DNA of 64,000 nt, from the NCBI RefSeq assembly GCF_030705305.1, contig NZ_JAUZEE010000006.1, forward strand, positions 1 to 64,000. Direction: 5' to 3'. This document shows positions 43,076 to 46,246 of this stretch, one piece after another; positions within the stretch are counted from its first letter, which is position 1, and the number at the start of each line of letters is the position of its first letter. Under the pieces are notes generated by a model. It was given only the letters and a program-made list of their open reading frames with translations, made no database searches and was not told where the DNA came from. The translations under genes and the position numbers were made by a program. This stretch comes from Leptothrix discophora (lineage in GTDB: Bacteria > Pseudomonadota > Gammaproteobacteria > Burkholderiales > Burkholderiaceae_C).

Positions 43076-44556
43076 TGGTCATCGACCACGACCGGGCCGG
43101 CGGCTACTGGGGCGCCGTCTACGTCTTCACCGCGATCAAGGGCCTGCAGGTCGTCATCGACGGTCCGGTGGGCTGCGAGAACCTGCCGGTGACCTCGGTG
43201 CTGCACTACACCGACGCGCTGCCGCCGCATGAGCTGCCCATCGTCGTCACCGGCCTGGCCGAGGAACAGCTCGGCCGCGAGGGCACCGAGGGCAGCATGA
43301 AGCGCGCCCACGCGGTGCTGGACCCGGACCTGCCGGCGGTGGTCGTGACCGGCTCGATCGCCGAGATGATCGGCGGCGGCGTGACGCCCGAGGGCACCAC
43401 GATTGCCCGCTTCCTGCCGCGCACCATCGACGAGGACCAGTGGCAATGCGCCAACCGCGCGCTGCTGTGGCTGTGGACCGAGCACGGCCCCGGCCGGCAT
43501 GTCCCGAAGCGCCAGCCCTTTGCCGAACGGCCGGCCGGCGAGAAGCCGCGCGTCAACCTGATCGGCCCGAGCTACGGCGTCTTCAACGGCCCGAGCGACG
43601 CGCACGAGATCCGTCGCCTGGTCGAGGGCATCGGGGCCGAGGTCAACCTCGTCTTCCCGCTCGGCAGCCACCTGGTCGACGTGCCGAAGCTGGCCGATGC
43701 CGACGTCAACATCTGCCTCTACCGCGAGTACGGCCGTCTGCTGTGCGAGGCGCTGGAGCGGCCCTACCTGCAGGCGCCCATCGGCCTGCACAGCACGACC
43801 GCCTTCCTGCGCCAGCTTGGCGAGCTGCTGCACCTGGACCCGGAACCCTTCATCGAGCGCGAGAAGCACACCACGATCAAGCCGATCTGGGACCTCTGGC
43901 GCTCGGTCACGCAGGACTTCTTCGGCACCGCGAGCTTCGCCATCGTCGCCAGCGAGACCTACACCCGCGGCGTGCGCCATTTCCTGGAAGACGAGCTGGG
44001 CCTGCCCTGCCGCTTCGCGATCGCCCGCAAGCCCGGCGAGAAGACCGACCACGCGGCGGTGCGCGCGCTGGTCCACGGCAGCACGCCGCTGGTGCTCTAC
44101 GGCAGCGTCAACGAACGCATGTACCTGGCCGAGCTGGCCGGGCAGGGACCGATGCGGCCGACCTACATCGCCGCGAGCTTCCCCGGCGCGGTGATCCGCC
44201 GCGCCACCGGCACGCCCTTCATGGGCTATGCCGGTGCGACGTACCTGGTGCAGGAGTTCTGCAACGCGCTGTTCGATGCGCTGTTCCACATCCTGCCGCT
44301 GGCCACCGACATGGACCGCGCCGCGCCGACGCCCGCCCGGGCCTTGCCCGAGCTGGTCTGGAGCGACGAGGCGAGAGAGCTGCTCGACGAGCTGCTGGAG
44401 GCCCAGCCGGTGCTGGTGCGCATCTCGGCCGCTCGCCGGTTGCGTGACCAGGCCGAGGCCGCCGCACGCGCCGAAGGTGCCGCCGCCGTGCAGGTCACCC
44501 ACCTCGAGGGCCGCACGCGCCAGATGGCGGCGGCGGTGCTCGGGACGCTGGCCTGA
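43075..44556 (+). CDS. bchZ: Chlorophyllide a oxidoreductase subunit Z
   Basis: Second NifK-like subunit, 493 residues, starting [20 protein letters not shown], the standard BchZ N-terminus. The [18 protein letters not shown] block carries the cluster Cys. Together with BchX and BchY it produces 3-vinyl bacteriochlorophyllide. The gene is followed by a 105-base leader and pufB. The puf promoter may lie within the bchZ 3' end, as in Rhodobacter, but no promoter is clear enough to call. Confidence 0.96.
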
Positions 44557-44582
44557 GGGCCACGAGAGACGAAGGTTTGCCG

Positions 44583-44624
44583 GGGATCAGCCCTGGTGAT
44601 CCCAGCCGCGCGGGAGATGCGCGG
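44583..44624 (+). promoter_or_regulatory. Two stem-loops in the pufB 5' leader
   Basis: GGGATCA-gccctgg-TGATCCC (44583-44603) is a perfect 7-bp stem, directly followed by CCGCGC-gggagat-GCGCGG (44606-44624). Both lie between bchZ and the pufB ribosome site. They could protect the abundant puf messages from 5' decay or end bchZ transcription. Confidence 0.5.
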
Positions 44625-44661
44625 TGTCGGCCGCAAGGCCACTGATCGAGGAGAGATCGCT

Positions 44662-44811
44662 ATGGCTGAGGAAAGGAAAGGCTCGTTGTCCGGGCTGACC
44701 GAGAACGAGGCCCGGGAATTCCACGGCATCTTCATGTCCAGCTTCATCGGCTTCACGGCGATCGCCGTCGTGGCCCATGTGCTGGTCTGGATGTGGCGTC
44801 CCTGGCTGTGA
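44662..44811 (+). CDS. pufB: Light-harvesting 1 beta polypeptide
   Basis: LH1 beta antenna polypeptide of 49 residues. One membrane helix carries the two conserved His: H21 (position -18) and H39 (position 0, the bacteriochlorophyll ligand). The WRPW cluster ends the helix. ATG 44662 follows GAGGAGA; an earlier in-frame ATG (44596) would add a non-family extension and is not used. It is the first puf gene and is followed by an unusual 75-residue ORF before pufA. Confidence 0.97.
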
Positions 44812-44840
44812 GTCTTTGAACCAGCGCTGAAGGAACCGTC

Positions 44841-45068
44841 ATGACCCAGCAGTTCACCACCCTGTCCCAGGCGGGACACACCCTGCACGACAGCCTTGCC
44901 AACCAGGCGTTGTTCATCCTGAGTTTCAGTGTCGTGTTCTGTGTGGCCATTGCCGCGCAGCTGTTGTTTGTCCGCTGGCGCAGCTGGTTCCCCGGCGCAG
45001 AGAGCGAGAAATCGCTGATCAAGGGTGTCCGGGCGGGTGTCTACACCTTCCTGTCGCACCTCAACTAG
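44841..45068 (+). CDS. LH1 beta-like single-helix protein with Gln replacing both His (novel puf ORF)
   Basis: 75-residue protein with its own AAGGA ribosome site, 29 bases after pufB and 11 before pufA. One membrane helix spans about residues 23-44 and ends WRSWFPG. Aligned on WRSW/WRPW without gaps, Q40 falls on the bacteriochlorophyll-ligating H39 of PufB and Q22 on H21, with the same 18-residue spacing and the same six residues to the first Trp. A 25-residue tail (ending VYTFLSHLN) has no counterpart in PufB. Codons are less GC-biased (ttg, ttt, agt) than neighbours. It may be a divergent antenna paralogue without normal pigment binding, or an accessory core subunit comparable in role to PufX or protein W. 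The homology is inferred. Confidence 0.8.
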
Positions 45069-45079
45069 GAGAAGAAAGC

Positions 45080-45262
45080 ATGTGGAGAATCTGGCTGCTG
45101 TTCGACCCGCGCCGTGCGCTGGTCGCCTTGTTCGCCTTCTTGTTCGTGCTGGCACTGGTGATTCACTTCGTGCTGCTCAGTACCAACAAGTTCAACTGGC
45201 TCGATGGACCGCGCACCGCGGTGAGCCAGAACTCGTCGATGCCGGCTGCTGCTCCCAAGTAG
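45080..45262 (+). CDS. pufA: Light-harvesting 1 alpha polypeptide
   Basis: LH1 alpha antenna polypeptide of 60 residues starting [20 protein letters not shown]. The bacteriochlorophyll ligand is His29, and the C-terminal Trp (KFNWLDG) tunes absorption. A short Ala/Pro-rich tail follows. The ribosome site (GGAGAAG) overlaps the stop of the preceding ORF. A hairpin-rich 159-base gap separates it from pufL. Confidence 0.97.
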
Positions 45263-45271
45263 GCACCGGTT

Positions 45272-45353
45272 CGGGCCGCACAGGCCCGTTCGCGGCGCGC
45301 CGGCTGCATCGCCGGATGGCCCCTGGCCTGACGGCACGATGGCCTGGCGCGCC
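45272..45353 (+). promoter_or_regulatory. pufA-pufL intercistronic stem-loops
   Basis: CGGGCC-gcaca-GGCCCG (45272-45288) lies 10 bases after the pufA stop. A second, larger fold is bounded by two copies of GGCGCGCC (45294-45301 and 45346-45353) with further GGCC repeats between. In Rhodobacter, intercistronic puf hairpins block 3' decay and raise the amount of pufBA mRNA over pufLM. The same role is inferred here. Confidence 0.65.
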
Positions 45354-45421
45354 CCTTTCGATCCCATGAATAACGACAGACGCTCGGACATGTTCCGTGG
45401 CGCCTCGCGGAGGTGGCAAGC

Positions 45422-46246
45422 ATGTCCATGCTGAACTTCGAGAGAAAGTACCGCGTGCGCGGAGGCACCCTGCTCGGGGGCGACCTGTTCGACTTCTGGG
45501 TCGGACCGTTCTACGTGGGATTCTTTGGCGTGACGACGGCGTTCTTTTCGCTGCTCGGCACGCTGCTGATCGTGTGGGGCGCCTCGCAAGGCGGCACCTG
45601 GAACCTCTGGCAGATCAGCATCGCGCCGCCGGACCTGAAGTACGGTCTAGGCCTGGCACCGCTGATGGAGGGCGGGCTGTGGCAGCTCATCACGGTCTGC
45701 GCGATCGGCGCCTTCGTCTCATGGGCGCTGCGCGAGGTCGAGATCTGCCGCAAGCTGGGGATCGGGCTGCACGTGCCCTTCGGCTTCTCGGTGGCGATCC
45801 TGGCCTACGTGACGCTGGTCGTGGTCCGGCCGGTGCTGATGGGTGCCTGGGGACATGGCTTCCCCTACGGGATCATCAGCCACCTCGACTGGGTGTCCAA
45901 CACGGGCTACCAGTACCTGCACTTCCACTACAACCCGGCGCACATGCTGGCCGTGAGCTTCTTCTTCGCCACCACCTTCGCGCTGAGCCTGCACGGCTCG
46001 CTCATCCTGTCGTCGACCAATCCGGCGCGCGGCGAGGTGGTCAAGACGGCCGAGCACGAGAACACGTTCTTCCGCGACACGATCGGCTATTCGATCGGCA
46101 CCCTGGGCATCCACCGCCTGGGCCTGTTCCTGGCGCTGTCTGCGGCCTTCTGGAGCGCGGTGTGCATCGTCATCAGCGGACCCTTCTGGACCCGCGGCTG
46201 GCCCGAGTGGTGGAGCTGGTGGTTGAACCTTCCGGTGTGGAAGTGA
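45422..46246 (+). CDS. pufL: Reaction-centre L subunit
   Basis: L subunit, 274 residues, starting [20 protein letters not shown]. Five transmembrane helices. The block [15 protein letters not shown] contains the His ligand of a special-pair bacteriochlorophyll. Iron/quinone-site His are in SLHGSLILS and [13 protein letters not shown] 45422 lies eight bases after GGAGG; ATG 45428 is an alternative. pufM begins nine bases after its stop. Confidence 0.97.

Follow-up and report, generated by a model that had tools for sequence, protein, structure and literature searches.

Between pufB and pufA, the genes for the LH1 beta and alpha polypeptides, the puf operon of Leptothrix discophora carries a third small gene, here called X, whose 75-residue product is almost certainly, on the strength of sequence comparison, a paralogue of the LH1 beta polypeptide PufB. 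The X polypeptide still has the one membrane helix, the WRxW belt and a tail at its C-terminus, and no longer has the histidine that ligates bacteriochlorophyll (BChl). X belongs to a family found in many puf operons, in each of which PufB is of a short form and the small gene that elsewhere precedes pufB is absent. As to its role, a helper in pigment supply or assembly and an accessory subunit of the core complex are the two readings that have to be weighed most closely.

The X gene and its setting

X is a real gene of the puf operon. The window analysed is a stretch of 64,000 nucleotides, and the features of the pufB-X-pufA segment are collected in Table 1. Coordinates, frame and length were recomputed and gave one single-frame ORF, as described in an earlier, sequence-only reading of this DNA. 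It starts 29 nt past the pufB stop and stops 11 nt ahead of the pufA start codon. The ribosome site of its own with which that reading credited the gene is borne out by the AAGGA ahead of its ATG and by a Shine-Dalgarno (SD)-like motif within 20 nt upstream of 66 of the 69 X genes of the family, in which the median gap from X to the pufA ATG is 12 nt.

Table 1. Features of the pufB-X-pufA segment (positions are those of the window)
Feature	Position	Strand	Basis
pufB, LH1 beta, 49 aa, short form, ends WRPWL, no tail, His21/His39	44662..44811	+	Pfam LHC 49.6 bits; NCBIfam pufB 92.9 bits, cut-off 61
AAGGA, likely ribosome site of X, before ATG 44841	44830..44834	+	sequence
X (ORF2/ORF74 family), 75 aa, probable LH1-beta paralogue without BChl-ligand His	44841..45068	+	homology, site counts, tree
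X residues 21-45, membrane helix; Q40 at the BChl-binding His place of PufB	44901..44975	+	AF2 helix 14-49; site counts
X residues 46-49, WRSW, counterpart of PufB WRPW	44976..44987	+	W 68/69, R 65/69
X residues 50-75, conserved C-terminal tail, predicted helix 58-74	44988..45065	+	conservation; AF2, low confidence
AGGAG, likely ribosome site of pufA, overlaps X stop codon	45067..45071	+	sequence
pufA, LH1 alpha, 60 aa	45080..45262	+	Pfam LHC 61.8 bits

No promoter pattern was matched in 44540-45430, and the one match there to a terminator-like pattern lies inside X, where shuffled sequences yield a mean of 0.5. A stable hairpin behind pufA was considered and rejected (z -0.65; 50 of 200 shuffles fold as well). 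A search of the source genome for LHC proteins found only two, PufB and PufA, and revealed no LH2 (puc) gene. The C-terminus of the window PufA (45200-45259) reads SSMPAAAPK and relatives carry motifs like APMPAA, both close to [A/S][P/A][L/M/I]P, a motif that is said in the available part of one paper to bind the cytochrome subunit (PMC9640540).

The claim that no puf gene had been described at this place does not hold, since published counterparts exist in Rvi. gelatinosus and, by place and size, in R. depolymerans. The available text on the former describes two puf ORFs without known function, of which ORF2, upstream of pufA, was aligned with PufA/PufA2 proteins and noted to be without His; that text offers no comparison of ORF2 with PufB (PMC12817894). 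Our loci from Rvi. gelatinosus (L063) and R. benzoatilyticus (L040) have X at the same place as the window, between pufB and pufA. R. depolymerans ORF74 (RD2015_RS05155) is placed between pufB and pufA by locus tag; the accessible portion of the source reports that pufB-ORF74-pufA are cotranscribed in a major 1-kb transcript and that 2.34% of the ORF74 transcript is left in a sigma-factor mutant, and gives no function for it (PMC10037100). The likeness of ORF74 to X is one of place and size only, the X of Roseateles puraquae (L015) being 74 aa long, and we infer that ORF74 is probably a member of the X family. In the openly licensed literature, as far as its text was available, no paper was found that assigns X a function, a PufB paralogy or a link to PufQ.

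Kinship with the LH1 beta polypeptide

The proposal that X is an LH1-beta-like polypeptide without the usual ligand is upheld by both homology and site counts. In a search of 177,635 PDB sequences, the window X matches the LH1 beta chain 8z81_B (phmmer E 1e-6), and the X of Rvi. gelatinosus (ORF2) matches 9m8m_B (E 6.7e-11) in an alignment that includes the start of the tail. In single comparisons, the window X aligns with the tailed PufB of L011 at 33% over 66 aa (BLASTP E 1e-14), and the X profile matches the tailed PufB profile over 73 columns (E 2.5e-22) and the short PufB profile (E 2.7e-11). Tailed PufB thus resembles X over its full length, tail included, and differs from it in retaining the ligand His. 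The window X gave no Pfam match at E 10 and no NCBIfam match at E 1. Across the family, Pfam LHC (PF00556) matches 3 of 35 X proteins, with a best E of 0.00049, and the best of them (L086) stays below the curated cut-offs, scoring 20.7 with LHC against 23 and 37.6 bits with NF040862 against 61; Rvi. ORF2 reaches 18.3 bits with NCBIfam pufB, cut-off 61.

In a tree of 225 small proteins, made by a quick method from 74 columns only and with a warning of long branches, X forms one side of a branch (64 rows, SH-aLRT 99.9). A BchZ tree, which covers 129 of the 137 operons, does not unite those that bear X in a single clade (AU p 0.011), and the distribution of X on it needs 10 changes, at least four of them on well-supported branches. 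In light of the single branch in the protein tree and the want of a single clade in the BchZ tree, X seems to have arisen once and later to have been moved, lost or replaced several times.

The NG86 dN/dS ratio, as the median of 21 chosen pairs, is 0.21 for X, 0.06 for PufB and 0.11 for PufA. These medians argue that X is a selected protein, and the codon comparisons indicate purifying selection that is looser than that on the antenna chains. The window X and that of Sphaerotilus mobilis, taken alone, give 0.76; their ten differences all fall in the first 37 residues, and the tails are identical.

Ligand sites, tail and fold

In the ungapped alignment, PufB H21, H39 and W45 stand opposite X Q22, Q40 and W46, and the spacings of 18 and 6 given in the sequence-only reading are exact. 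The emphasis placed on Gln in place of both His fares less well: Gln40 is common in the family, but Gln22 occurs in only 2 of 69 proteins and the pair is not meaningful. The BChl-ligand His, six residues before WRxW, is gone in 68 of the 69 X proteins, the place being taken by Gln (48), Lys (6), Thr (4), Ser (3), Ala (3), Glu (2), Gly (1) and Leu (1), with His in the remaining one. The first His place is occupied by His in 2 of 69 proteins, and by Glu in that of Sphaerotilus mobilis. A designed ligand pair Gln22/Gln40 was rejected on these counts, and Gln22 is, from the aligned sequences, accidental. Because residues other than Gln occupy the ligand place in 21 of 69 proteins, ligation is not a shared function of X. 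What is retained is W46 (68 of 69), R47 (65 of 69) and Ala36, four residues before the ligand place (62 of 69).

PufB was measured at the same places in 136 operons: 130 of these proteins have His at the second place and 129 at the first. The same six proteins (L175, L176, L178-L180, L182) are exceptions at both places, with a visible His that was missed by motif offset; at the first place the PufB of L173, which has Asn there, is a further one. In the tailed PufB-like protein of L172 no motif was found, and it was left out of the site counts; at the end of its helix it reads ILVAVLWRWPWF, with no His in the stretch, and it is a second possible His-less beta chain.

It is WRxW and the tail that are conserved among the 69 X proteins, rather than the ligand site: the mean majority fraction is 0.32 in the N-flank, 0.54 in the helix, 0.83 in WRxW and 0.72 in the tail, where the commonest pattern is PGAE..KSL..GVKAAVYTFMSHL. 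An AlphaFold2 (AF2) model of X has helices at residues 14-49 and 58-74 and a mean pLDDT of 66; only residues 21-40, at 87-88, are modelled well, and helix 58-74 is of low confidence. A Foldseek search of the PDB with this model returned one uninformative match (E 9.5). The tail helix has a mild amphipathic character: in 46 of the 69 proteins its moment is reached by fewer than 5% of shuffles. The K/R values for the positive-inside rule (N side 1.91, C side 1.61) do not decide the side of the membrane; the C-terminus of LH1 beta is periplasmic.

The tail had been called unique to this ORF, which is contradicted by the C-terminal tail that PufB itself carries in 47 of 137 operons. Tyr seven residues past WRxW marks 45 of the 47 PufB tails vs 0 of 69 X tails. 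Some PDB beta chains end at GY (6z5r, 9k3q) or one residue past it (1wrg, 7oy8), which would be in keeping with a mature PufB that has lost its tail; others are deposited with 65-75 residues (8z81, 7xxf, 9m8m, 6z5s, 8zjw, 9j2f). Removal of the beta-chain tail from the mature protein is a feature of Rsp. rubrum; a strict search of the openly licensed literature found no paper on removal of the LH1 beta tail. If the PufB tail is removed, then X would, at a guess, retain a tail that PufB gives up.

Occurrence of X and states of the puf operon

A genome-wide protein search for X in 100 relatives, the own genome included, gave matches in 13, of which 11 are separate genes and two (L011, L013) are tailed PufB itself. 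All 11 separate genes sit between pufB and pufA, so that the placement is more than chance. Within the window's genus, pufL is present in 2 of 13 genomes and X in both.

To keep the denominator independent of X, puf loci were gathered by PufL. One set comprises 80 loci, the best among at least 594 relatives in named genomes, and is biased to near kin; the other comprises 71 loci from two even samples, by order and by phylum. PufL was found in 47 of 399 genomes of the order sample, of which 44 were fetched (the own genome and two broken pufL genes were left out), and in 31 of 398 genomes of the phylum sample, of which 27 were fetched, the other four being already in the order sample. Together with the window this makes 152 loci. 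Removal of 15, namely 7 duplicates and 8 loci in which pufB and pufA were out of reach, leaves 137 distinct operons.

The search for homologues in other puf operons by which the claim was to be checked finds X in 69 of the 137, in a sample that favours near kin; it is present in close relatives, and occurs in 35 of 44 order-sample loci vs 0 of 27 phylum-sample loci. X was counted only between pufB and pufA, and, duplicates aside, the 152 loci contain no further X-labelled ORF. Hosts include Sphaerotilus mobilis, Roseateles puraquae, Pelomonas, Rubrivivax gelatinosus, R. benzoatilyticus, R. rivuli and Ideonella alba, as well as Rhodoferax, Limnohabitans and Hydrogenophaga records. Two records carry unexpected labels. 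A MAG contig labelled Bordetella parapertussis (L043, CAMDXD010000426.1) has a puf operon with X whose DNA from pufB to pufA is identical to that of a Burkholderiales genome (L119), and its label is probably wrong; a contig labelled Candidatus Fonsibacter lacus (L061, RFXW01000002.1) also bears X, the other X cases here being Burkholderiales, and is probably misbinned.

The operons fall into distinct states. X accompanies a short PufB in 69. A tailed PufB without X is found in 47, with a small gene upstream of pufB in 28 and without it in 19. Short PufB with the upstream gene and no X accounts for 14, the upstream gene being of the Rhodobacter PufQ type in 10 and Q-like in 4. Neither X, tail nor upstream gene is present in 7. 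None of the 69 X operons has a tailed PufB, and none has a Q-like or PufQ gene upstream of pufB; of the 68 operons without X, 61 have a tail or an upstream gene. For the upstream look, 63 of the 69 X operons offered 1,400 bp or more to the pufB stop, and the sequence was too short for a fair look in L048 (none of the three) and L084 (tailed).

The gene in the PufQ slot

The small upstream gene, of about 70-95 aa, lies between bchZ and pufB in many alpha- and gammaproteobacterial operons, and 32 among the 137 have one that is Q-like (L026, L027, L030, L031, L033, L035, L036, L038, L039, L041, L042, L046, L053, L055, L056, L058, L060, L071, L074, L113-L115, L156-L160, L162, L172, L174, L177 and L181); these records are labelled alpha-, gamma- and some betaproteobacteria. 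For the 80 loci of named genomes the search extended up to 4,000 bp upstream of pufL. None of 12 upstream genes examined matches Pfam LHC or PufQ at E 0.1. No upstream gene among those scanned rises above a curated Pfam or NCBIfam cut-off; two score 18.8 and 14.1 bits with NCBIfam pufB (cut-off 61).

Nine of the Q-like genes were first noticed via the X profile, which makes their likeness to X circular. Five Methylobacterium genes, which the Q-like profile and not X had brought to light, gave a profile that was run on 1,774 ORFs from 81 loci; it retrieved other upstream genes first and then, up to E 1, only X, PufB and the upstream gene of L056, and compared with X directly it gave a weak hhalign probability of 35%. 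Against layout-preserving shuffles at the 99% level, the Q-like profile recognises 69 of 69 X proteins, 44 of 47 tailed PufB and 52 of 90 short PufB, and the X profile recognises 29 of the 32 Q-like genes. Over 12 whole X-bearing genomes, the best match of a 12-gene Q-like profile was X in 11 cases and PufB in the twelfth, with best-match E values from 8.9e-10 to 0.04 (0.0018 in the window's own genome); in seven of these genomes 150 of 180-257 first-look candidates were scored. From these profile comparisons, the Q-like upstream genes look like a family of their own, related to X and perhaps to PufQ.

Four Burkholderiales operons with a short PufB and no X (L056, L113-L115) do have the upstream gene; L056 is a Rubrivivax MAG, and one of the other three comes from a single-contig genome. 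Run on the genomes of L113-L115, the X profile has PufB as its top match, then the upstream gene, and nothing else better than E 0.008.

An upstream-type gene also stands near pufL in L066, L075 and L088, without pufBA in reach. The Q-like gene is thus near pufL in a Halieaceae MAG (L066) and in Chromatocurvus halotolerans (L075), which we take to be a member of the Halieaceae. In the available part of a review, pufQ is said to be absent from that family (PMC12654162). Of three plasmid-borne puf loci, the one in Thiodictyon is annotated with a hypothetical gene in the bchZ-pufB interval, the Novosphingobium annotation lists none, and the Methylobacterium aquaticum record is unannotated.

Relation to PufQ

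PufQ is described, in the part of the source available, as a protein with a single membrane helix, conserved in the helix and the C-terminus, that interacts with ferrochelatase and steers porphyrin flux; its C-terminus is predicted by the authors to be cytoplasmic, and a pufQ deletion in Rba. sphaeroides is reported to lower BChl while haem and coproporphyrin accumulate (PMC5725709). X resembles it in being small, in its one membrane helix and conserved C-terminus, in belonging to the puf operon and perhaps in a weak profile similarity that runs via the upstream genes, but differs in place, as PufQ is encoded between bchZ and pufB and X between pufB and pufA.

X as PufQ in the strict sense was rejected, its matches staying below the PF05398 cut-off. 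Ten of 398 genomes, which belong to a single family, have a match above the cut-off of that model; none of the 100 relatives, 13 of which have X or a tailed PufB, has one. Weaker matches, with E up to 0.1, occur in 43 of the 100 relatives, that of the own genome being on another contig, and 1 of 35 X proteins is matched (E 0.015). The X and PufQ profiles give an hhalign probability of 34%. A Rhodobacter PufQ profile run on the 1,774 ORFs has among its top 14 matches 10 X proteins, two upstream genes and two tailed PufB (E 0.05-0.85). At the 99% shuffle level, the X profile recognises 2 of 10 PufQ (1 of 10 in another run) and the PufQ profile 16 of 69 X; the Q-like profile recognises 7 of 10 PufQ, and the PufQ profile 4 of 32 Q-like genes. 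The PufQ profile recognises no PufB (0 of 47 tailed, 0 of 90 short), and neither PufB profile recognises any of the 10 PufQ. Kinship of X and PufQ through the upstream genes is therefore possible from these comparisons, by a weak link.

Roles considered for X

Our leading reading, which we hold with something short of even confidence, is that X is a PufQ-type helper for pigment supply or for assembly of antenna and reaction centre (RC), made from an antenna subunit, and not a pigment-carrying subunit of the ring. Betaproteobacteria would then have in X what other operons have in the small gene between bchZ and pufB. X would lie with its beta-like helix against the alpha and beta chains or against biosynthetic enzymes and would bind a partner through its conserved tail, so that pigment delivery or subunit assembly would be matched to antenna synthesis from the same transcript. 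More speculatively, the tail may once have been the C-terminal part of PufB, shifted to a dedicated trans-acting protein.

The argument for a helper is carried by the mutual exclusion of X with tailed PufB and with the upstream gene. It draws further on the profile likeness of X to the genes in the PufQ slot, on the concentration of conservation in tail and WRxW, on the four Burkholderiales operons that have the upstream gene but neither X nor a tail, and on the lack of any PF05398 match above cut-off in the 100 relatives. Fisher values for the exclusion ignore kinship and are given no weight. However, X, tail and upstream gene are near neighbours that may move as a block, so that exclusion need not mean shared function, and on the BchZ tree the contrast of X with tail or upstream gene comes down to four independent pairs on supported branches, which is not significant (median p 0.125). 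Also against a helper are the weak link of X to true Rhodobacter PufQ, the want of a direct link from PufQ to PufB, the 28 of 47 tailed operons in which tail and upstream gene occur together, the seven with none of the three, and the retention in X of both WRxW and Ala36, which is what one would expect of a packed antenna helix.

That retention leads to the alternative that X is an accessory subunit of the RC-LH1 core, free of BChl and present in one or a few copies in or beside each ring, where it would shape a gap, a quinone path or contacts made through the tail, in the manner of PufX, protein-W or gamma polypeptides, themselves small extra membrane helices of the core complex. Such a subunit is nearly as likely as the helper. 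It accords with the beta-like helix and its near-invariant W46 and R47, with the placement between pufB and pufA at tight spacing and with the pufA SD overlapping the X stop; the cotranscription reported for R. depolymerans supports it as well, a major pufB-ORF74-pufA transcript suiting a structural part too. Chain 4 of 8k5o, a 105-aa beta-type chain that is single both in that entry and among entries of the PDB listing, is a possible precedent for one odd beta chain in a core complex. On the other hand, X finds no match among PDB chains named PufX, protein-W or gamma, all 12 of its matches in that PDB search being named antenna or light-harvesting; its relatives lie upstream of pufB in the PufQ slot; and other operons manage without X, most of them with a tail or an upstream gene instead. 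PufX, according to the accessible text of one paper, is encoded downstream of pufM in Rhodobacteraceae (PMC6052148). The sequence-only reading had proposed a ring-modifying role, which we regard as a real but minority prospect; upstream-slot relatives and exclusion together make a role in assembly or pigment supply at least as likely.

Two further explanations are less attractive. X might bind (bacterio)chlorophyll or a precursor through Gln40 or a water molecule, as an unusual antenna or a pigment carrier: Gln is the commonest residue at the ligand place, Ala is kept four residues before it, and Gln can ligate chlorophyll in other proteins. With other residues at that place in 21 of 69 proteins and the first His place free, we judge this improbable. 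X might instead be a spacer ORF that sets the ratio of pufB to pufA translation, its product hardly mattering, as the overlap of the pufA ribosome site with the X stop, the short gaps across the family and the high dN/dS of the Sphaerotilus pair alone would allow. The median dN/dS over 21 pairs, the nearly invariant tail residues of 69 proteins and the one well-supported X clade, in a tree of few columns, make it very improbable indeed.

Returning to the helper, a wider proposal, which we consider doubtful, the more so as PufQ shows no direct similarity to PufB, is that PufQ, the upstream gene and X are all His-less beta polypeptides, antenna subunits turned into helpers of assembly or pigment flux, and that in Burkholderiales X replaces both the PufB tail and the upstream helper and is the missing PufQ.

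A gene without known function in a textbook operon gains a family, that of an antenna beta polypeptide minus its ligand, turned to other use. X is also a 75-residue chain to be reckoned with in structural work on betaproteobacterial core complexes. It bears, finally, on the question raised by the authors of the PufQ study, who remark, in the text available, that PufQ is not present in all purple bacteria and ask how those without it manage the branch point between haem and bacteriochlorophyll (PMC5725709).
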